Assembly: GCF_006937785.1 (NCBI RefSeq)
Contig: NZ_SJEE01000004.1
Coordinates: 1-64,000 of the forward strand
Reading direction: 5' to 3'
Length of the DNA stretch: 64,000 nt
Source: Pseudanabaena sp. UWO311
GTDB taxonomy: Bacteria; Cyanobacteriota; Cyanobacteriia; Pseudanabaenales; Pseudanabaenaceae
In this document: positions 2,700-55,951 of the stretch, piece after piece
Numbering within the stretch: the first letter of the stretch is position 1
Layout: every line of letters begins with the position of its first letter
Program-made: the position numbers and the translations under genes
The notes under the pieces: generated by a model
The model's database searches: none
Seen by the model: the letters and a program-made list of their open reading frames with translations, nothing else
Told to the model about the DNA's origin: nothing

Positions 2700-4055
2700 T
2701 TACCCTTGCAAGCTTGCTGCGATCGTAACAGGAATAGATATTGGTGCAGTAATGGCGCGTACAGTCAGCGGTAATGACTGAACAGATTTACGGGTGCGTT
2801 GCGCGATCGCATCCAAATCATCCAATGATTTCAATAGTTCTCCATCATGCATGATTAGTTCTAGTAAAGGTTGCTCGTTGGGTTGTGGAATATCAGATAT
2901 ATGAGTGAGGCGATCGCCTGTGATCACGCCATTCTCGCAACTCCGCCAGATTTGCTTGCGACCTGCGATCGATTGCTTCCCGCTTGATTTTTTAGAAACA
3001 GGAATATTATCAATTTCCACTAGCTTATAAACTCCATTTACGGGTGCACCTGTTACCAACTTTGTACCGATGCCGTAGCCATCAATGGGTGCTCCTAATG
3101 CTTTGAGACGGAGAATCTCGGCTTCGTCAATATCGCCACTGGCGAATATAGCAGCATCAGGAAGAAGCGATCGCACTTCTTTAGAAACTGCGGCAATATC
3201 GCCTGAATCAATGCGAATTCCTTTTAATTGCATCTCGCCAGATTTGACTTTTTCGGCAAGATTTCGAGCAGCAGTGATCGTATCGAAGGTATCGATTAAT
3301 AACGGACTATGAGGGAAAACTTGGTGGAAAGCGCTAAAAGCTTGAGCTTCACTTCCTTCAGTTGCATTCAATGCCATCACTAAAGCATGAGCCATCGTGC
3401 CGCTTGGCTTTCTGCCAAGCTTTAGCGCAGCTAATACATTAGACGTAGCATTCATTCCTGCGGCGAGAGCTGCTCTTGCAGCCCAGAGTGAAGCTTGAGG
3501 ACTGAAGGCTCGTCTTGTGCCAAATTCTAAAAGGGTAATGCGATCGCCTGCTGCATCACGCATTCTTGCGGCTCTAGTCGCAATCAGTGTTTGATAGTTA
3601 ATGGTATTTAGAAGATAGGTTTCCACTAATTGTGCTTGCCAGAGTGGTGCTTCGATTCTCAGAAAAGGCTCATTGGCAAACATGGCGGTTCCTTCTGGCA
3701 CTGCCCAGAGATCGCCTTCAAAACGAAAATTTCTTAATAATTCCCAAAAATGGCGATCGGCCTTGGCAAAGATACCTGTAGCTTGTAGAGCTTCGATTTG
3801 CTCTGAGGTGAAATGCAGATTTTGCAGATATTCCACTGCCTGAGCGAGTCCCATCGCGATCAGATAGCCAAATCCCTCAGGCAATCGACGCACGAATAAC
3901 TCAAAACTAGCGCGTTTGCGATCGCATCCTTCTCGGACATAACAAGCGCCCATCGTCAGTTGATATAGGTCAGTGAGCAATCCATATTCATCGGTGGCGA
4001 TGTTCAGCGTATCGGACTTCAGGCTCACGGCAGGATTAACGGTTATAGCGCTCAT
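2700..4055 (-). CDS. pncB: Nicotinate phosphoribosyltransferase
   Basis: The 451-residue product begins with LLTDLYQLTMGACYVREG, the hallmark N-terminus of NAPRTase, and continues with EFGTRRAFSP, SNVLAALKLG and RIDSGDIAA, which form the phosphoribosyl-binding barrel. The enzyme converts nicotinate and PRPP to nicotinate mononucleotide in the Preiss-Handler salvage route. It is first in the pncB-nadD-nrtR operon. The about 200-bp upstream region holds three TTATAGTA repeats that may serve the regulator. The gene is complete, with the start at ATG 4055. Confidence 0.92.
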   Translation of the reverse strand: MSAITVNPAVSLKSDTLNIATDEYGLLTDLYQLTMGACYVREGCDRKRASFELFVRRLPEGFGYLIAMGLAQAVEYLQNLHFTSEQIEALQATGIFAKADRHFWELLRNFRFEGDLWAVPEGTAMFANEPFLRIEAPLWQAQLVETYLLNTINYQTLIATRAARMRDAAGDRITLLEFGTRRAFSPQASLWAARAALAAGMNATSNVLAALKLGRKPSGTMAHALVMALNATEGSEAQAFSAFHQVFPHSPLLIDTFDTITAARNLAEKVKSGEMQLKGIRIDSGDIAAVSKEVRSLLPDAAIFASGDIDEAEILRLKALGAPIDGYGIGTKLVTGAPVNGVYKLVEIDNIPVSKKSSGKQSIAGRKQIWRSCENGVITGDRLTHISDIPQPNEQPLLELIMHDGELLKSLDDLDAIAQRTRKSVQSLPLTVRAITAPISIPVTIAASLQG

Positions 4056-4088
4056 GACTTTGATTGGGTAGAGGCTGGTATATTTTTA

Positions 4089-4248
4089 TTATAGTACTTT
4101 TTACCAAAATTGCAAGCGTTTTTTATTTGGCAATACTTAAAATATTTATAGTAAAACCATAAACTTTCAATGTCTTAAAGCTATTTCCTATAGATGCAAG
4201 ACATTAGCTATCAAAGCTATATGCTTAAAATCTGCAATAGTTATAGTA
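4089..4248. promoter_or_regulatory. Three TTATAGTA repeats upstream of pncB, candidate operator region
   Basis: TTATAGTA occurs at 4089-4096, 4146-4153 and 4241-4248 within the AT-rich gap between pncB and the upstream LysR gene; two copies are followed by AA. Repeated short sites before an NrtR-regulated operon suggest regulator binding, but I cannot match them to an established NrtR consensus. Confidence 0.3.
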
Positions 4249-4257
4249 AATACAACT

Positions 4258-5169
4258 TTAAATACTAATTGCTGTGGCAGCAAGAATATTACGTAACCAT
4301 TTGTGAGTCGTATGGTTGCGGGTACTTTGATGCCAGCGCATAAATACAGAAAAGCCGTCAATCGTTATAGGGCAAGGGAAAACTTTTAAATGCAAATCTT
4401 GAGCAAAGCTATTGGCTACACGTTTGGCTAAGGTGGCGATCAGATCGCTACGGGCAAGGATGGAAGGAGCGACGAGAAAATGGGGAATAGAAATAGTAAT
4501 ATTGCGGCTAAGTGTTTGTTTCGCTAAAAGAGTATCTACTCGTCCGACCATATCTTCTTTTATGGAAATTAAGAGATGAGAAGTCGCCAGATATTCTTCC
4601 AAAGATAAAGAATCTTTAATTAGGGAATGATTTTGACGACAGACACAGACAAACTGTTCTTGGAAAAGCAATTGTTCTTGATGCCAAGGAATCTGTTCAG
4701 GAAATACGCCACAAATTAGATCGACTTTGCCGTTATCCAATAGATCAAATAATTGTTGCCGATCGCCTGTACGGATTTGAATTTTGGCATGGGGTGCAAT
4801 CTGTTCTAATTTTTCTAATAAAGGCGGTAACATTACAAATTCCACATAGTCTGTCATGCCGATCGCAAATACGCGATCGCTAGTCATTGGCTCGAAACTC
4901 TCTGCCGATGAAAGCGCTATCTGAATCTGTTGTAATGCGGGTTGAATCTGTTGGGCTAAGGCGATCGCTACGGGTGTGGGTTGCAAGCCAGACTTTGCCC
5001 TGATGAATAATTCATCTTTAGTCAGATATCGCAATCTAGCCAGAGCGTTACTGGTCGCAGGTTGGCTTAAACCAATGCTCTCACCTGCACGAGTGACATG
5101 GCGATCGCGCATTAGAGCATCAAATACCACCAATAAATTGAGGTCAATCTGGTTCAGACTAAAATTCAT
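4258..5169 (-). CDS. LysR-family transcriptional regulator
   Basis: From ATG 5169 the protein has 303 residues, the normal LTTR length; an upstream ATG at 5274 would add 35 atypical residues and cross an inverted repeat. The N-terminal winged helix-turn-helix (LLVVFDALMRDRHVTRAGESIGLSQPA..., about residues 10-65) is followed by a LysR substrate-binding domain (about 90-295). It is divergent from the DJ-1/PfpI gene at 5304 and so probably controls the 5304-6655 pair and itself; that is the usual LTTR arrangement, not proven here. The ligand is unknown. Confidence 0.85.
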   Translation of the reverse strand: MNFSLNQIDLNLLVVFDALMRDRHVTRAGESIGLSQPATSNALARLRYLTKDELFIRAKSGLQPTPVAIALAQQIQPALQQIQIALSSAESFEPMTSDRVFAIGMTDYVEFVMLPPLLEKLEQIAPHAKIQIRTGDRQQLFDLLDNGKVDLICGVFPEQIPWHQEQLLFQEQFVCVCRQNHSLIKDSLSLEEYLATSHLLISIKEDMVGRVDTLLAKQTLSRNITISIPHFLVAPSILARSDLIATLAKRVANSFAQDLHLKVFPCPITIDGFSVFMRWHQSTRNHTTHKWLRNILAATAISI

Positions 5170-5238
5170 AGCATGAATGATTTTTATATAAAATATCCAT
5201 TGGACAAATGCATAATACTCGATCCACACTTTAGGTAG

Positions 5239-48377: not shown

Positions 48378-49034
48378 CTACTGAATAGCAGTGTAACCTA
48401 ATGTTGTAGTACCAATAGTTGTGTTACAAGCTGGAGCTGCATTTATAGATGGAAGAATGTATAGAGTACCAGTCTGGACAGCTAGTTGGCTTCCTCCATT
48501 AACAGCAGGTAAATTAGCTTCACAAAGTGTAGCTAGTGTAGTAGCTTCATTACTACCTGTTGGAGTCGAGACACTAACTTGACCTGTGTAGGACTTCAAA
48601 GGTGAGCTAGCACCGCCTGTCATGGCATCAGCAGTAGTACCAGTACCAGAAACAGCACCAGTTGGAGTTGCTACACCAAAAACATTGGCAGATTGAGAAG
48701 TTCCACTAACAGTCTTGCCTCCATTTCTGGCAATTCCATAGCCATAGTTTTCTGTAGTGAAAGCAATACCTACACCAAGAGATCCTAGGTTAGGTGCAAA
48801 TTGTTGTTTCTCTAGGTAATAAGCTTGCTGAGAGCGGTTCATGGAGCCAGTGTAGGTTTTGGCTTCAGACTGACGAGCTTTGGAAGCTTGGTTAAGGAAA
48901 GAAGGAAGCGCGATCGCAGCCAAGATACCGATGATGATGATAACTACGAGTAGTTCAATCAGGGTGAAGCCCTTTTCGCCATTCTTCTTGTTGAGGATGT
49001 GTTGAATGAGCTTGGTCTTGAATTCAGATTTCAT
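48378..49034 (-). CDS. pilA: Type IV pilin (PilA-like), Ser/Thr/Gly-rich
   Basis: The 218-residue prepilin has a 22-residue leader ending Gly, then FTLIELLVVIIIIGILAAIALPSFLNQ, the class III signal with Glu5 for processing by PilD. The body is rich in Ser, Thr, Gly and Ala and has two Cys near the C-terminus. It should form the pilus fibre for twitching and DNA uptake. The O-glycosylation genes lie directly downstream, and many Ser/Thr in the body are candidate sites. A second pilin lies upstream (49207). Confidence 0.88.
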   Translation of the reverse strand: MKSEFKTKLIQHILNKKNGEKGFTLIELLVVIIIIGILAAIALPSFLNQASKARQSEAKTYTGSMNRSQQAYYLEKQQFAPNLGSLGVGIAFTTENYGYGIARNGGKTVSGTSQSANVFGVATPTGAVSGTGTTADAMTGGASSPLKSYTGQVSVSTPTGSNEATTLATLCEANLPAVNGGSQLAVQTGTLYILPSINAAPACNTTIGTTTLGYTAIQ

Positions 49035-49206: not shown

Positions 49207-49773
49207 TTATTCGTCTAGAGAAAAGTTGAGAGGGCATACCATGGTTTGCGAAACGGCGTTAAGCGATCCAGGAGGGATAGCAATATTAGGAGCATTGGCA
49301 ACGCAAAAAATGGTATCTATTCTGACTACTCCAGGTATCCCAACAACACCAACAAAAGCCTTTAAATTGGGGGATGTAGGCGTTGCAACATTAGTAACAA
49401 TTTGATCGATCTGGACTGGGGTGGTATTTCCATTAACATCGCCTGTAATCACAGAATAAGTGAAATTAGCTGAGGATATATTTGCTCCCACATTCAGTGT
49501 AGTTATATTGCCAGCAAACGTCTTTTTTTCCAGATAGTAGGCTTGTTGCAGGCGGCTCATCGTTCCAATAAATGATTTAGCTTCAGCAAATCGTGCCTTG
49601 TTGGCTTGATTGATAAATGAGGGCAGCGCGATCGCAGCTAGCAAACCAATAATAACGATTACTACCAATAACTCAATTAATGTAAAACCTTGTTCTTCTT
49701 GGGTTTGAGCTTTACTAAAACGGCGATCGTGAAGCCATAAACCAACGATAAATTCTAAATTTCTGAAGTCCAC
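49207..49773 (-). CDS. Type IV pilin-like protein, second paralogue
   Basis: The 188-residue prepilin (GTG start 49773) has a leader of about 28 residues ending in Gly (ends QEEQG), then FTLIELLVVIVIIGLLAAIALPSFINQANKARF. The body differs from the first pilin but keeps SKxFIGTMSRLQQAYYLEKKTF. Two Cys near the end (IFCVANAP, MVCPLN) resemble a C-terminal disulfide. The pair is probably pilin plus minor pilin or two major types. The gap 49035-49206 holds only the pilA leader. Confidence 0.82.
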   Translation of the reverse strand: MDFRNLEFIVGLWLHDRRFSKAQTQEEQGFTLIELLVVIVIIGLLAAIALPSFINQANKARFAEAKSFIGTMSRLQQAYYLEKKTFAGNITTLNVGANISSANFTYSVITGDVNGNTTPVQIDQIVTNVATPTSPNLKAFVGVVGIPGVVRIDTIFCVANAPNIAIPPGSLNAVSQTMVCPLNFSLDE

Positions 49774-49841: not shown

Positions 49842-50423
49842 TTAAACCTCTCTAAAATATTCCAGAATATTAAGAATTCTCGCTTCTAGATTGATCGCAT
49901 CCCTCAGATTACAAAATACATTGGCTTTAAGCTGCGAATCACTACATAACCCAATCACTAAGATATTAATATGCTCAATATATGCAGCATTCAGTGCCGC
50001 CTTACCTTCTTCATATACAAGTGGAATCCCTGGTTGAATGATGGCAAGATTTTGAAAAAATTGATTGGTACTGGTAAAACAGCGATTTATATATTGACTA
50101 AGCAAATCAAAGTCAACCTCAGTCTTTCCTTGAATATCGCCGAGGGTATAAGCAATCATGTCAATCGGCGTGCGATCGCTAACAAATGGTGTCGCCGAGC
50201 TTTGCCAAACCTGTTCGGCAGCATCCAAAACATGATTCTGCACAAATAGCCTCGTCCTAAAGTCCATTGGTTCCGCAGGATCTAAGCCCAAATCTGCAAA
50301 AACTTGACTAGTTGTGGTGCGGACAAAAGGGATATTTAGGTGAGATGAGAGGGCGATCGCTAATGTTGTTTTGCCAGTACGATGTGCGCCGCAGAGTCCC
50401 AGATTGGCATTAAGCTTAAACAT
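49842..50423 (-). CDS. P-loop nucleotide kinase-like protein (AAA/kinase fold)
   Basis: The 193-residue protein begins with NLGLCGAHRTGKTTLAIALSSHL (Walker A GAHRTGKT) and has ATPFVSDRTPIDMIAYTL, a DR-T motif of nucleoside/nucleotide kinases, then a helical tail with NILEYF. The substrate is unknown; a NadR-kinase-like or thymidylate-kinase-like reaction is possible. It overlaps the Uma2 gene by 8 bp at its start. Confidence 0.7.
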   Translation of the reverse strand: MFKLNANLGLCGAHRTGKTTLAIALSSHLNIPFVRTTTSQVFADLGLDPAEPMDFRTRLFVQNHVLDAAEQVWQSSATPFVSDRTPIDMIAYTLGDIQGKTEVDFDLLSQYINRCFTSTNQFFQNLAIIQPGIPLVYEEGKAALNAAYIEHINILVIGLCSDSQLKANVFCNLRDAINLEARILNILEYFREV

Positions 50424-51195
50424 CGTCTGGATCGATACCTAAAGCTCGTAACCGCTCCGCAAGGCGATTAGCACGTATGCTTTCCTGCTCAGCACGTTGG
50501 CTTTCTTGCTCAGCTCGTTGTTGCTGTGCTTCGGCACGTCTCCGTTCTTGAGCGGTGCGTTGTTGTTCTTGCCACACTTGGATTTCTGATTGCTGTAGAC
50601 GTTGGCTTATTTCCACTGGCGACAAAAATCTTTGACCATCGGGACGCGAGATAATTAACTCCTGTCCGAACGCCCAATCAAATCTAATTCCTAACAATGG
50701 ACTGACCCAATTGAGCATTGATGGAATTTGGACGAGGCGATCGCCCACTCTCTGCCAGCCTTCTAAAATCAAATCATCGGGATCGTAAATGTAATATTCA
50801 TGAACGCCATAGGTTTGGTAAAAATCAAACTTATCTTCAAGGGAATCTTGCCCACGCCGATCTTTATTACTGGGTGACAGGATCTCAAAAACTACCTGTG
50901 GCGCAATGTTATCTTCTAACCATTGCTTATAAGATCCCCTTCGACCTTTGGGACGACCTAGTGCCACCATCACATCAGGCGCAACCCTTTTTTGAGTGCG
51001 ACGCACTGGATACCAAAGCAAATCCCCTGCAATAAATACATTAGGATCATCGGCAAACATGATCTCTAAATTTTCTTTGATGATCACGATCCAGCGATAT
51101 TGTTCGGTATTGTCTGCCATAGGATTACCGTCACTGTCAGGATAGTCGATCTCTGGAGCGATTGCTTCTTCAGATATTAGAGGTTGCAGAGTCAT
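50416..51195 (-). CDS. Uma2 family (DUF820) protein with C-terminal coiled coil
   Basis: The protein has about 259 residues from ATG 51195 (an alternative ATG at 51255 adds 20 residues). The Uma2 core is present: KRVAPDVMVALGRPKGRRGSYKQW, APQVVFEILSPSNKDRRGQDSLEDKFDFYQTYGVHEYYIYDPDD (PD-(D/E)xK-like D, E-x-L, K). The last about 70 residues form a coiled coil with repeats of QRAEQESQRAEQES. It ends with an 8-bp overlap with the kinase-like gene. Confidence 0.85.
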   Translation of the reverse strand: MTLQPLISEEAIAPEIDYPDSDGNPMADNTEQYRWIVIIKENLEIMFADDPNVFIAGDLLWYPVRRTQKRVAPDVMVALGRPKGRRGSYKQWLEDNIAPQVVFEILSPSNKDRRGQDSLEDKFDFYQTYGVHEYYIYDPDDLILEGWQRVGDRLVQIPSMLNWVSPLLGIRFDWAFGQELIISRPDGQRFLSPVEISQRLQQSEIQVWQEQQRTAQERRRAEAQQQRAEQESQRAEQESIRANRLAERLRALGIDPDDV

Positions 51196-51291
51196 GGATT
51201 TGCCCTCACCGAAACCTAAGCATAATTCATCCATTAAAACATAATCATCAAACATGAAAAGTGGTGCTTTTACAGCTTTCCATATTTTTCA

Positions 51292-52557
51292 TTAGGCTCC
51301 TAATACCCGCTTAGCTCTAGCGAGATAGGACTCGCGATCAGCTAAGCCATTAGTGCCGCCATTGATGATTTTTGTGATTGTGAGGATATCGTCGCGATCG
51401 GCATGATTATTAAGTTTGCGAGTGTCCCAATACCAACCTGCACTGAGGCAAGCAAGATCGAAATCTCCTAGGCGCTGAGGATTATTAATCAAGTCCACGC
51501 CCAAGGCTCGACCACAATCAGCATAGTTTGCTCTTCCTGTAACTTGGATTAAGCCACGCCCCTTAAATCGCACACCATCACCCGATTGAGTATTACCGAG
51601 ATCTCGTCGTCCTTCGTAGTCCGCGCCAGAGGCATATTCTTCGTTCGTGTTAAACCCATCGCTCTCATGCCCCAACTGAGCTAGGAAATGTGCTTTGCGT
51701 AATGGTGTAGTAATTGCATAACGCTGCATTGTTTTATTTAAGTGGGGCAGCAATCTCTCAAGGCGATCGCGGCGGGAATAGGGAGCAATCGCGCTCAGTT
51801 GCTCTTGGGTAATCAACCCAGAGTTTTTATCTAAATCAACTGCGGCGGTACGCGGATATAGCCCCTCATAGGGTTCTTGAGCAATTTGGCGAGGTGGCAA
51901 ATTATTGAGAATTCTAATCGTGCTATCAACTAGCACATCCTTGGGGTTGAAATCATCTTTCAATCCTGTAATCAATTGATCTAATCGTCGCGCTGCTAAT
52001 TTGCGATGCTCAGTCAAATTCGGTGCTTGGTAAAGTCCTTCATAGGGTTTTCGTAAAACTGGTCGTAAAGTCAAACCACTCATCACCCTAATCAAGTCAT
52101 CAATTCTGCCATCAGCACTATTGGTCTTCGTATCTGTAATATTTCCGATCGCTGCCACTAAAGTCTGAGCGGCTTGTTTACGCCATGTTGCCAAACTTGC
52201 CGCAGGGAAAAGTCCTGAATAAGGCGAGCGCCCTGTTGGACGAGCTGGTAAATTACGCAAAAAGCGAATCAAATCATCGATCGCTCCGTCAAAAACACTA
52301 CCTTCAACATCAGGGATTTTTGGTACGGAAGCTTGAAGAGTTAACGCAGCTCGACTGCGCCATGTTGGTAAATCGGCGGCAGGAAGAATGCCTGCATAAG
52401 GCTGTCGTGCCTCTGGACGCGCAGGCAAATTATTTAATACGCGAACCAGATCATCTACTAGTCCATCTTTTTCATTGATCGTATTGCCGACAATCTTGGG
52501 AACCAGAAATGCAAGGGTTACAGCAGCTTGCGATCGCCAAATCTCAACTTGTTTCAT
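51292..52557 (-). CDS. GH19-family lysin with four N-terminal repeats
   Basis: The 421-residue protein has four about 58-residue repeats (about 5-62, 63-121, 122-179, 180-235), each with DxLI(R)xLxNLPxRP and PYxGLxPAA, then a GH19 domain (about 245-420): AQLGHESDGFNTNEE (Glu298 and Glu306/307 as catalytic acids) and FKGRGLIQVTGRANY. GH19 enzymes cut chitin or peptidoglycan. No signal peptide is seen, so release needs lysis or another route. It is the last gene of the 55951-51292 cluster. Confidence 0.85.
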   Translation of the reverse strand: MKQVEIWRSQAAVTLAFLVPKIVGNTINEKDGLVDDLVRVLNNLPARPEARQPYAGILPAADLPTWRSRAALTLQASVPKIPDVEGSVFDGAIDDLIRFLRNLPARPTGRSPYSGLFPAASLATWRKQAAQTLVAAIGNITDTKTNSADGRIDDLIRVMSGLTLRPVLRKPYEGLYQAPNLTEHRKLAARRLDQLITGLKDDFNPKDVLVDSTIRILNNLPPRQIAQEPYEGLYPRTAAVDLDKNSGLITQEQLSAIAPYSRRDRLERLLPHLNKTMQRYAITTPLRKAHFLAQLGHESDGFNTNEEYASGADYEGRRDLGNTQSGDGVRFKGRGLIQVTGRANYADCGRALGVDLINNPQRLGDFDLACLSAGWYWDTRKLNNHADRDDILTITKIINGGTNGLADRESYLARAKRVLGA

Positions 52558-52594
52558 GGCACTTATCGGGTAATTTCCACTTTGCGTAACACCA

Positions 52595-53521
52595 TCATCT
52601 TATGAAACGCCCAAAAATCAATTTTACAAAGAAGGGAAAGCGCAGAAAAATTCTGCCTAGTAAGTTGATAATCCATTGGCGTAAGCTAATTATTGCAATA
52701 GGTAAATATGGCTCTATATAAGATTCTAATCTTCCAATTAATATGTTGGCGCGACCTATTGGACTAGTAAACTTGAGTGCTATCCAGCAAAAAAACAAGA
52801 TAACGATCACCACAACTGCCACTAGTTGAAAAATGGGGCTTTCTAAAAGATGAAGTAAACGTGTAAATACACGCTTTACTAGCTTTGGTGTGCTGGGTAA
52901 TGTCAAATTTAGCTTGGAAGAAATCCACCAAATCATTAAGACCACAATTGGAGCAGCGATCGCCATGTGCCAACATTGACTAGTTAAAAACAAACTAAAG
53001 CTTTCTGGCAAATCAAGGCGTTTACCAAGATTTTGTAATGGGTCACACCATGTGATCGTCGTGGCAAAAGATACAGTGGCGATCGCAAAGGGACGTAATT
53101 TTTCTTCAACATAATCGGCGATCGCAGTTAAAAATTGCCGCGAAATTTGACTGACCAAAAAACTATGCGCCTTTAAAATGCGATCGGCATGAGGATGTCC
53201 CAAGATATCTTGACAAACTTTCTGATTGAGATCGCCATCAATAGTTATCAATGTCCGCAATATTAACGTTGGATTCTCATCAGGTGGGTTGTCATCCTTG
53301 TCTGTGTAATAAGTCCAAATTGCAATTGCTCCCTGACGTTGAGCAGATATACCTACACTAGAAGCCAATACTTGCAATAATTCCTGACTATTAACTCGAT
53401 ATATAATCTCGTTTTCAGCCGCCAATCCCTTCACATCTAGCTCCATCTGGACTAGAACGCTTGGGTTAAGCCAAAGCCTAATTTCGTCATCAACAATAGC
53501 CAACCAATTAGGCGTAGCCAC
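52595..53521 (-). CDS. Membrane protein with a shared DGD motif (unknown system, gene 5)
   Basis: The 308-residue protein has a cytoplasmic domain (about 1-145) and three to four membrane helices (about 145-160, 185-205, 228-250, 275-305). It contains IDGDLNQKV (from residue 94) with D105, H119 and V123, the same spacing (+11, +25, +29) as in the gene at 54509. A similar motif lies in the gene at 53603. It precedes the GH19 gene by 37 bp. Function is unknown; by position it could place the soluble partners at the membrane. Confidence 0.65.
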   Translation of the reverse strand: MATPNWLAIVDDEIRLWLNPSVLVQMELDVKGLAAENEIIYRVNSQELLQVLASSVGISAQRQGAIAIWTYYTDKDDNPPDENPTLILRTLITIDGDLNQKVCQDILGHPHADRILKAHSFLVSQISRQFLTAIADYVEEKLRPFAIATVSFATTITWCDPLQNLGKRLDLPESFSLFLTSQCWHMAIAAPIVVLMIWWISSKLNLTLPSTPKLVKRVFTRLLHLLESPIFQLVAVVVIVILFFCWIALKFTSPIGRANILIGRLESYIEPYLPIAIISLRQWIINLLGRIFLRFPFFVKLIFGRFIR

Positions 53522-53602
53522 CTTAACTCCGTATTTTAATCAAGTACGCCTAATGTTTTAGTAGGGAAGAGACAAAGCATATTCTCTAATTATTATTTAG
53601 AA

Positions 53603-54469
53603 TTATTTAGAGCGGAATGGCATCAAATCTTTGACTAGGTTTACACAAGTCATGATTAATCCTGACCACTGCTTTTCAGCATTTTCTACCGCTTGATGAT
53701 GCAACTCAAAAATTAGCTTTGCCATCTTCGGGTCAATCTTGCTTCTATTTGAAATAAACAAATCGTCGAGAAATCTGTTATTCAGATCTCCATCAAGTTG
53801 GAACTTTGTCTGAGCATAGATACGCTCACCATTCAACATCGATTGCTCAAACTCCCATAACTTACGGAAATAGCGAATTGTTGGCGCGTCAGGAACCAGT
53901 TCGCCATTAGCATCTTTCGGTAGATCCATTTGGAGAACTTTTTTGGCAAGCTCCTCATAACAAGCTTGTTCAACCTCAAATTGCTCCTTTTGCCTAGGAT
54001 CGCTCAAATTTTGACGACTACTAAATACACGTTCAGCTCGCTTATAAATTTCTAGGTCTCTGTTGTATCGATCCAACTCGGTTTGGTTTGCAGCCGATCC
54101 TTGCTTTTGTAGCTCTCTACTACGATCAAGAAGTGCTCTCTTGATGTCTTGTAAGCCCTCTTCGGTCTTATACATAACATTTTCGAGCAGATCAGCATAG
54201 AATTGTTTGGCATCAAATCTAGCGATCGGAATATGGCTGACGATCAGCGTATTTACTTCTAGTGTCGTAATTTCTTCTAAAACATCTTTGATGGTTTCTC
54301 GAAATTTATGAAGAGTAGTACTTTCTCCAGCACCATCTTTATTCGGTGCTGTTGCGCTAGGAGTAGTCGCTAATTCCGCAGATTTCTTGACAGGTTTGTT
54401 GCCATTAGCTTTAACCCGATTAGCATCATCTTCGGCATTACTTTTACTGTTTGTAGCCCGATCTTGCAT
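53603..54469 (-). CDS. Soluble protein with a shared DGD motif (unknown system, gene 4)
   Basis: The 288-residue protein begins with a low-complexity charged segment (about 1-55), then IKDVLEEITTLEVNTLIVSH (similar to the gene at 54509), a long helical insert (about 95-215) and FQLDGDLNNRFLDD (L225-D236) with H257/H258 and V261. D is at +11 as in its neighbours, and the H-x3-V is 7 residues further. It looks like the 54509 domain with about 140 residues inserted. No known family is recognised. Confidence 0.65.
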   Translation of the reverse strand: MQDRATNSKSNAEDDANRVKANGNKPVKKSAELATTPSATAPNKDGAGESTTLHKFRETIKDVLEEITTLEVNTLIVSHIPIARFDAKQFYADLLENVMYKTEEGLQDIKRALLDRSRELQKQGSAANQTELDRYNRDLEIYKRAERVFSSRQNLSDPRQKEQFEVEQACYEELAKKVLQMDLPKDANGELVPDAPTIRYFRKLWEFEQSMLNGERIYAQTKFQLDGDLNNRFLDDLFISNRSKIDPKMAKLIFELHHQAVENAEKQWSGLIMTCVNLVKDLMPFRSK

Positions 54470-54508
54470 ACAGATTCCTCAGTGACAGGTCGCATAGACT
54501 CGACGCAA

Positions 54509-54949
54509 CTAGACTCGACTGAATATGCGATCGCTACTAAAGCTAGCTGTGTCTTCTTCAGGCTCTGGCTCATTTTCGCCATTTAAAAGTCCTGTTACCT
54601 TTTGACCAATATCGACAAGAGTTTTGAGATTATTCGCGATCGTCTCTGAACCCTTCCCAACTTGAATTTCATGAAAACCGCGTAGCTCTGCATAGGGAGA
54701 GCCTGCCAAAAAGTCTGCCCCTAGCTCATTTTCGATATCACCATCAATCAGATTAATCGTTGTCTTTAAGCGATTACCTGCTCTATGAGTGGTATCTCCT
54801 TCATGGGCAACCCAAGTCACAATTTCTAACTGTACAAGGTCAGAGAATATTTCAATCAAAGCATCACCAAAGTTTTTGGTTTCTTTGAGCTTGCTTTGAA
54901 AACGTACAGACGCAGTTACTGATACCGACGAAGAACTTGAGTACGTCAT
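54509..54949 (-). CDS. Small soluble protein with a shared DGD motif (unknown system, gene 3)
   Basis: The 146-residue protein starts with a Ser/Val stretch, then FGDALIEIFSDLVQLEIVTWVAH (helix and strand), LIDGDIENELGADF (I68 on, D79) and HEIQV (H93, V97), ending with an acidic tail (ENEPEPEEDTASFSS). It is the minimal form of the domain found in the two genes downstream. No hydrophobic helix and no catalytic set that I recognise. Confidence 0.65.
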   Translation of the reverse strand: MTYSSSSSVSVTASVRFQSKLKETKNFGDALIEIFSDLVQLEIVTWVAHEGDTTHRAGNRLKTTINLIDGDIENELGADFLAGSPYAELRGFHEIQVGKGSETIANNLKTLVDIGQKVTGLLNGENEPEPEEDTASFSSDRIFSRV

Positions 54950-55140
54950 AGATAATACCTAATATAAAAATCCTGATGAATTGTGATCAAGACAGATAAC
55001 TGACTACTATTTTAAGCACTTAAACATAGACTTTTTCACAATAAAATCTTTTGTTAAAATCTTTTATAAGTTAAGTTTTCTATAAATCTTTTGTAAATTA
55101 GTTTTGACAAAAGTAACTTAAATGATTTCACTAAACAATC

Positions 55141-55404
55141 TTAATGATAGTCGGACAGCTCAATTAATTCCATTGGCACAAAACTCTCTTGTGGCAACAA
55201 AATCAGTTGAGAGTATATAAGTTTGCCAGTCATATCTATGCGATTAATCGCTATTCCCATTGGTCGAGGTAGTTGCGCGGCATAGGAATCAGCATAATAG
55301 CGATAAATCTGCTTAGCAGCTCTGATAATCATTGGATCGACTTTTTTGATTACAGGTTCTGGCTGTCTCTCTGGTTGTTCAAGGCGCTGGGCGGCATATG
55401 ACAC
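55141..55404 (-). CDS. Small hypothetical protein (unknown system, gene 2)
   Basis: The 87-residue protein has a Pro/Glu/Gln/Arg-rich start, an amphipathic helix (MIIRAAKQIYRYYADSYAAQ) and a beta-like end (GIAINRIDMTGKLIYSQLILL). No family is recognised. It lies in the same direction as the genes downstream, with 191 bp between; that gap and the 154 bp before it hold no gene. Confidence 0.55.
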   Translation of the reverse strand: MSYAAQRLEQPERQPEPVIKKVDPMIIRAAKQIYRYYADSYAAQLPRPMGIAINRIDMTGKLIYSQLILLPQESFVPMELIELSDYH

Positions 55405-55558
55405 AATGTAAACCCCTTAAATTTGACTATTATTTGCCTTATAAAAAGCTGCATCAGGACTTTAGCTGACTTTGTTTTTTTTAGCAAGATTTGAGCTAAG
55501 GATTATACATGAGTTGATATTTTTTGGGCTGTGAAATGAGTAAAAATTAGCAAAATAT

Positions 55559-55951
55559 TTAATTACCATCAGCACTAGCAAGTTTAATCCTAAATAGCTT
55601 GCTGTAGAAGGTTTGAGGGAAATCCACATAGCCCTTGTCGCGAATATTCGAGACAACTTCGATTAAATAACCAACAAATTCTGAATTTTCTAATGTCATT
55701 TCATAGCTCATGTCAGCATCGCCCTCGAAGGTCAATCGACATAACGCTAGGTCAGAAGGCAAATTTGCTACACGCCACACCGCCATAAAAGAAATAGGTG
55801 AACTTCCTTCTACATGACGCTCGCCAGTAATTTCACCTTGTTTGTACAAGGAAATAGCATAGGGGAGAGCTTGACGCTTGTTAGGCTCTCGATAATAGGG
55901 CATGTAGATTGAAACTTCTTGCGGTGGAGCAGCTTTAAGTTCGATCGCCAT
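55559..55951 (-). CDS. Small hypothetical protein (unknown system, gene 1)
   Basis: The 130-residue protein is soluble, with SIYMPYYREPNKRQALPYAISLYKQG and CRLTFEGDADMSYEMTLENSEFVGYLIEVV, a beta-rich pattern ended by a helix. It leads the cluster on the minus strand. The FEGDAD part resembles the DGD theme in outline only. Function unknown. Confidence 0.55.
   Translation of the reverse strand: MAIELKAAPPQEVSIYMPYYREPNKRQALPYAISLYKQGEITGERHVEGSSPISFMAVWRVANLPSDLALCRLTFEGDADMSYEMTLENSEFVGYLIEVVSNIRDKGYVDFPQTFYSKLFRIKLASADGN

Follow-up and report, generated by a model that had tools for sequence, protein, structure and literature searches.

The locus studied here raises the question of what a row of genes, three of which share one short motif, might do together. 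It spans positions 51292-55951 of a 64,000-nucleotide stretch of DNA from Pseudanabaena sp. UWO311 (contig NZ_SJEE01000004.1, positions 1 to 64,000 of the forward strand), and this whole stretch is referred to as the window. A reading made from the letters alone (the sequence-only reading) had described a cluster of six genes at this place, and all six open reading frames (ORFs) are present at the coordinates listed here and further below, all on the minus strand. It had also claimed that three of them, here called A, B and C, encode one domain in three forms, and that these, together with a GH19 lysin, would fit a lysis, release or abortive-infection system. The first claim is supported by the results below, the second is not, and the three genes may represent a new protein family that organizes something, perhaps DNA, at the membrane. 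The three genes are:

54509..54949, minus strand: gene A, 146 residues, the minimal shared domain, with no hydrophobic segment (ORF and AlphaFold model)
53603..54469, minus strand: gene B, 288 residues, a core interrupted by a helical insert (about 87-212; ORF and AlphaFold model)
52595..53521, minus strand: gene C, 308 residues, an N-terminal copy of the domain (IDGD..H...V) and then probable membrane helices (ORF, profile match and hydropathy)

A, B and C Carry One Shared Domain in Three Forms

When the motif was counted in the translations from the hydrophobic residue that precedes DGD, an Asp was found at +11 in A, B and C, and the His and Val at +25 and +29 in A and C and at +32 and +36 in B, i.e., shifted by 7; these positions are exactly those that had been claimed. 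The LE(I/V)xT segment that had been matched between A and B is also real, as it corresponds to strand β1 in both AlphaFold models. Relatives were gathered from 58 related genomes and from the loci of a scan of an 84,980-species collection, and were aligned (84 A, 54 B and 48 C sequences). Core profiles, from which the insert columns of B had been removed and the tails trimmed, were then compared with each other and with 52 column-shuffled or reversed controls per pair. None of the 52 controls was as good as the observed match for A-B (E 3.2e-4, over 85 collinear columns), for A-C (E 1.4e-4) or for B-C (E 3.8e-7), so that the similarity is beyond chance, with a small margin in the case of A-B (a real score of 27.0 vs 26.0 for the best control). 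Similar results were obtained with hidden Markov models (HMMs) run on protein sets that include a few duplicate loci. The HMM of the B core recognized, at E <= 1e-3, 22 of the 103 A proteins and 16 of the 55 C proteins, and none of 666 shuffled sequences or 1146 neighbouring genes. The HMM of the C core recognized 21 of the 64 B proteins and one of the 103 A proteins, no shuffled sequence, and a single one of the 1146 neighbouring genes, which is an unassigned gene directly after B (locus L142) and probably an unrecognized C.

Two results count against this kinship. With full-length profiles (56 null comparisons per family, with 26 unrelated families), only B-C exceeded the null (score 45.9; E 6.6e-6), and A-B (25.3) and A-C (27.4) fell within it, given that the best unrelated family scored 33.6 against A and the reversed profiles up to 28.4. 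Furthermore, the HMM of the A core was uninformative, since one shuffled sequence (3.1e-4) surpassed the best B protein (5.7e-4). Taken with the core comparisons, the results indicate that A, B and C are variants of one small domain. The division into a minimal, an insert-bearing and a membrane-bound form was likewise supported: a hydropathy scan detected hydrophobic segments in 52 of 55 C proteins, in none of 64 B proteins and in 3 of 103 A proteins, and in the C of the window the peaks lie at about 177-206 and 230-248. Neither these three proteins nor that of the small upstream gene S (see below) matched anything meaningful in the copies of Pfam, PHROGs, NCBIfam or PADLOC that were searched.

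The Trio Is a Module in Cyanobacteria

The distribution of the three genes was analyzed in 388 cyanobacterial genomes from 160 genera, a set that includes 26 genomes of the window's own genus and in which ancestry was not corrected for. A was present in 66 genomes (30 genera), B in 54 (21 genera) and C in 50 (19 genera), and the three sets were nearly nested: 52 of the 54 genomes with B also have A, and all 50 genomes with C have B. The two B genomes that lack A (G006 and G303) are assemblies 82% and 83% complete. Where two of the genes co-occur they are mostly close: A is no more than 12 kb from B, on the same contig, in 48 of 52 genomes, and the same holds for B and C in 47 of 50. On the other side, 14 of the 66 A genomes have neither B nor C. 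The trio is a module whose genes are mostly inherited together. The expectation that the genes of the cluster would be found together in other genomes was thus only half right, because A, B and C are usually adjacent and the GH19 gene is found apart from them outside the genus.

Outside Pseudanabaena the usual order is A1-A2-B-C, often preceded by maf. In the stretches examined at 47 such loci (two duplicates dropped), A was found in 46, B in 43 and C in 37; maf was present in 24, always within two genes of A, and psbP accompanied it in 17 (both named by eye, with a Pfam check on two loci). Ten further regions included three with maf (two of them also with psbP) and A1-A2 only, and three with a single longer A (381-824 residues) and no B or C. 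A2 consists of the A domain followed by a long acidic tail of very variable length, probably disordered, in which Asp/Glu make up 17-38% of the residues and Lys/Arg 1-7% (41 rows, including two duplicates). The tree of A domains, which has few columns, contained a 32-row A1 group (support 96/92), a 30-row A2 group (88/76, not firm) and a few rows outside both, and suggests that A1 and A2 derive from an old duplication.

The composition and variable length of the A2 tail would also suit a structural or storage scaffold, i.e., a membrane-attached condensate or cation-binding layer built from tails and paired domains and having no dedicated client. A2-type genes that occur without B and C in several lineages point the same way. 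This explanation is nonetheless quite improbable, since the copies seen in Pseudanabaena, Nostocaceae and Azospirillum keep A, B and C and have no acidic tail.

The Trio Follows ParA and ParB Genes in Azospirillum

A tblastn search of A against plasmids identified seven megaplasmids of the soil bacterium Azospirillum (E about 2e-5 to 3e-5) and, up to E <= 5, no other organism; the B of the window and another cyanobacterial B had no match among the plasmids. The Azospirillum A homologue reached an HMM E of 2.6e-19, and the next gene is a B homologue (E 5.4e-6). The third gene is C-like by its DGD motif, its position and its hydrophobic segment. Homologues of A and B and the C-like gene were present in all seven records, and in the four regions that were read the order was always ParA-type ATPase-ParB-A-B-C. 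Pfam confirmed, for one region, the ParA-type ATPase with an N-terminal helix-turn-helix (HTH) and the ParB domains. In one plasmid that was checked, a second ATPase-ParB pair lies at the start of the record. At locus L250 (6719-10786), the row ParA(HTH)-ParB-A-B-C is distinct from the pair with which the record begins.

The arrangement is reminiscent of a ParABS system in that the Azospirillum A-B-C genes come directly after ParA and ParB genes. It differs in that A, B and C are not themselves ParA or ParB, and in that the cyanobacterial copies were not seen to have a ParA-ParB pair as neighbours. The Azospirillum A lies on a very long branch of the tree, so that either transfer or common descent may account for it. 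Elsewhere, the 84,980-species scan yielded 63 loci, all from cyanobacteria, with patterns that would not fit the Azospirillum proteins, so that other phyla were largely unsearched; in a search by phylum, 39 of 386 were positive, all from the window's own genome, genus or class.

A role specific to photosynthesis, which the psbP-maf neighbourhood had brought to mind, was lowered in rank, because Azospirillum, which is not a phototroph, has the trio, and because in Pseudanabaena and Nostocaceae the trio is sited elsewhere.

The Predicted Fold of A and B May Be YbaB-Like

The AlphaFold model of A (mean predicted local distance difference test score, pLDDT, 76) has helices at 8-24 and 27-38, strands at 40-46, 60-66 and 72-76, and a long helix at 89-122, with block pLDDT values of 85-94 for residues 41-120 and 74-77 for residues 11-40. 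The model of B (mean pLDDT 78; residues 1-49 of low confidence) has a helix at 51-66, a strand at 69-76, the helical insert, strands at 216-224 and 229-233, and a helix at 247-285. In both models the final two strands flank the DGD motif. Hence, the common fold that had been expected was found for A and B, as both models have the same α1-β1-β2-β3-α2 core. The available part of PMC9610160 describes YbaB as having this topology, forming a dimer and binding DNA, and that of PMC11480477 gives the same topology. When A was compared with solved structures by VIA-align 2, four YbaB/EbfC structures occupied the top four rows (Z 5.5-4.6):

3f42: Z 5.5, root mean square deviation (rmsd) 3.8, 81 aligned
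1pug: Z 5.2, rmsd 3.9, 79 aligned
1ybx: Z 4.7, rmsd 4.2, 82 aligned
1j8b: Z 4.6, rmsd 5.0, 83 aligned

The first row other than YbaB had a Z of 4.1 and is thus partly tied with them. With B, the same four structures were at ranks 4, 7, 13 and 16 (Z 6.7-6.4; rmsd 5.0-6.4), in alignments that skip the insert and cover 87-91 of 92-94 residues.

Several observations weigh against a YbaB-like reading. VIA-align 2 re-ranks only the top 1000 rows of Foldseek, its rows within a Z of 1 of each other are tied, and a Z below 8 may signify just a common arrangement. In the model of A the first helices are less certain, and unrelated helical rows scored as well as YbaB with B (best Z 7.0). Foldseek itself gave no significant match to solved structures, the best YbaB rows having E 1.1 (A) and 1.8 (B). 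In profile comparisons with canonical YbaB (24 cyanobacterial proteins), the A core reached E 0.0044 and beat 52 of 52 nulls, yet, to judge by the column numbers, the last helix of A was paired with an earlier part of YbaB; B (50 of 52 nulls as good) and C (6 of 52) were at noise. PF02575 was not matched at E <= 1 by A, B or C of the window or of locus L091, nor at E <= 0.1 by those of Azospirillum, and it was not among the best 25 of the 47, 36 and 32 families found for the 84 A, 54 B and 48 C members, respectively. The cores of A and B are acidic (median net charge -6 and -4), which had been listed on the same side.

Acidic charge was dropped as a case against DNA binding, because canonical cyanobacterial YbaB is similarly acidic (-5). 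Sequence kinship with canonical YbaB, one of which was found in each of 39 of 39 cyanobacterial genomes searched, is not convincing, and the proteins are for this reason named YbaB-like and not assigned to the family. The fold of A and B may be YbaB-like, although the link is weak by score. The likeness lies in the predicted core and in the solved YbaB structures, which are nearest for A and recurrent for B. The differences are that A, B and C have no convincing sequence relation to YbaB, stand as three related genes in a row, and carry a helical insert (B), membrane helices (C) and an acidic tail (A2). YbaB/EbfC proteins are homodimeric "tweezers" that bind DNA.

The GH19 Protein and the Upstream Genes Are Neighbours

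The remaining three genes of the cluster are:

51292..52557, minus strand: GH19 endolysin-like protein (PF00182, 4.2e-10; phrog_181, 2.1e-67), judged a neighbour and not in the module
55141..55404, minus strand: gene S, 87 residues, conserved in the host's family (12 distinct sequences), judged not in the module
55559..55951, minus strand: EbsA, a type IV pilus biogenesis protein (NCBIfam NF045587, E 1.3e-48), a neighbour and not in the module

The assignment of the first of these to GH19 had been correct, and the lack of a signal peptide that had been noted fits the hydropathy scan, in which no hydrophobic segment was found. The two small genes upstream had both been called unknown; this stands for S, while the other is EbsA, which matches NF045587 with 164 bits vs a cut-off of 33. 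Within the genus, the GH19 gene was present in all 26 genomes searched and directly followed C in 24, with short gaps in the loci drawn out. In genome G007 it lies on a separate contig. In genome G017, in which A, B and C were not found, EbsA, S and GH19 are contiguous, with 44 bases from S to GH19. Outside the genus, A and a GH19 relative coexist in six of the searched genomes (G030, G031, G036, G039, G042 and G055), and in all six they are apart, on different contigs (some of the assemblies being fragmented) or, in G039, at a distance of 1.5 Mb. Since the GH19 gene stands apart outside the genus and is present without A, B and C in G017, it looks like an unrelated neighbour and not a part of the module; and since S lies between EbsA and GH19 where the trio is absent, it was judged to be outside the module as well. 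The G017 locus itself (L277, G017:C3:6000-16000, with EbsA-S-GH19 at 3159-5229) represents a natural loss or an empty site.

These data bear directly on the lysis, release or abortive-infection system with a GH19 lysin that the sequence-only reading had proposed. The position of the GH19 gene after C in nearly every genome of the genus is what such a system would predict. Its separation from A elsewhere, its retention without the trio, and the setting of A, where maf and psbP are frequent neighbours and which is therefore chromosomal and not that of a phage, all argue against it. Viral relatives were not found with the queries used: in IMG/VR, the pattern matches from two profile scans (5 and 11) and from a scan with the B protein of Azospirillum (5) all went unconfirmed; phage records contained no tblastn match to A or to its Azospirillum homologue; and at E <= 0.001 nothing was matched in the viral structure library. 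PADLOC, searched with the six proteins at E <= 0.1, returned only a weak and unconvincing match, of Aga_HEPN with residues 125-218 of C (E 0.03, 11.3 bits). With no phage or defence link found, this explanation is very unlikely, and its GH19 part is largely refuted.

Some further features of the surroundings were recorded. The N-terminus of the GH19 protein has about four repeats of about 60 residues (WR-x-x-AA ... DDLIR ... NLPARP ... PY-x-GL) that are unmatched in Pfam, and nearly full-length relatives with 46-48% identity are present in two other families; no literature pairing Pseudanabaena with GH19 was found. In the examined loci of the host's family, S sits between EbsA and A (or GH19), and a link of S to type IV pili is possible. 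About 6 kb from EbsA, at 48378-49034 and 49207-49773, lie two type IV pilin-like genes with a GFTLIELLVVI motif (recognized by eye). Just downstream of the GH19 gene, 50416-51255 encodes a putative endonuclease of the Uma2 family (PF05685) with a C-terminus rich in Gln, Glu and Arg.

A Possible Membrane-Tethered Complex

The explanation that we put forward, tentatively and at somewhat less than even confidence, is that A, B and C form a membrane-tethered YbaB-like complex that handles DNA. In this model A would be the soluble unit, which in many other lineages is doubled, the second copy bearing the long acidic tail; B would be a unit with a helical extension; and C would be the membrane anchor. 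The units would pair through the shared domain, as YbaB does with itself, and C would keep the resulting complex at the membrane. Its cargo would most likely be DNA or the nucleoid, so that DNA, or a partition apparatus, would be connected with the membrane through the complex. DNA is slightly favoured as cargo because of the YbaB-like fold and the ParA-ParB neighbours in Azospirillum. Three points count against it: the C-like gene of Azospirillum was not detected by any C HMM, no ParA-ParB pair was observed next to the genes in cyanobacteria, and a ParA-like protein was present in just one of 69 loci there. A more specific version is that the trio constitutes an undescribed membrane-anchored nucleoid system of cyanobacteria and Azospirillum megaplasmids, in which three divergent relatives of the YbaB fold form a hetero-oligomer that ties DNA to the membrane, through or alongside ParA-ParB, with A2 as a DNA-mimicking brake; we consider this version unlikely.

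Proteins, instead of DNA, could be the clients of a membrane-linked YbaB-like complex, which would then insert, sort or stabilize membrane proteins, as STIC2 does, or stabilize partner proteins, as in the case of the mycobacterial EspL. According to the available part of PMC11480477, STIC2 is a chloroplast homologue of YbaB, YbaB-like in structure; its binding partners are Alb3/Alb4 and ribosome-nascent-chain complexes, and its role is in the sorting of thylakoid proteins. It shares with the trio the YbaB topology and the membrane-linked work, and it differs in that it binds the membrane proteins Alb3/Alb4 and brings no anchor of its own. EspL of the ESX-1 system, in the available part of PMC6319747, has a predicted YbaB-type domain and stabilizes EspE/F/H; the predicted domain and the protein-stabilizing role are the likeness, and the difference is that it is a 115-residue protein of a secretion system. 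Both were set against the trio by description only. The reported action of STIC2 and EspL on proteins makes protein clients a rival to DNA that has to be taken seriously; the hydrophobic segments of C, the frequent proximity of maf and psbP to A, and the acidic tail of A2 would also agree with this. The non-phototrophic Azospirillum, however, has ParA-ParB at that place instead, the psbP-maf adjacency may reflect nothing but a shared ancestry of place, and A occurs in just a minority of the cyanobacterial genomes searched. On balance, protein clients appear less probable than not by a clear measure, though not so improbable as the nucleoid system with its brake.

Among the matches listed for literature on YbaB (in cyanobacteria; with ParA, ParB or the membrane; with fold, transmembrane segments or paralogs) and on CyanoP-maf clusters, no description of the A/B/C family was present, which is not proof that none exists. 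A, without a meaningful family match, is nevertheless found in 30 of the 160 cyanobacterial genera, and the trio recurs in Azospirillum. If the YbaB-like reading is true, the trio represents a form with several subunits and a membrane anchor, new to a fold which, in the sources available in part, is described in single proteins. Many cyanobacteria are polyploid, and if it is DNA that the complex handles, the trio would bear on how cyanobacteria and multi-replicon bacteria keep the nucleoid at the membrane.

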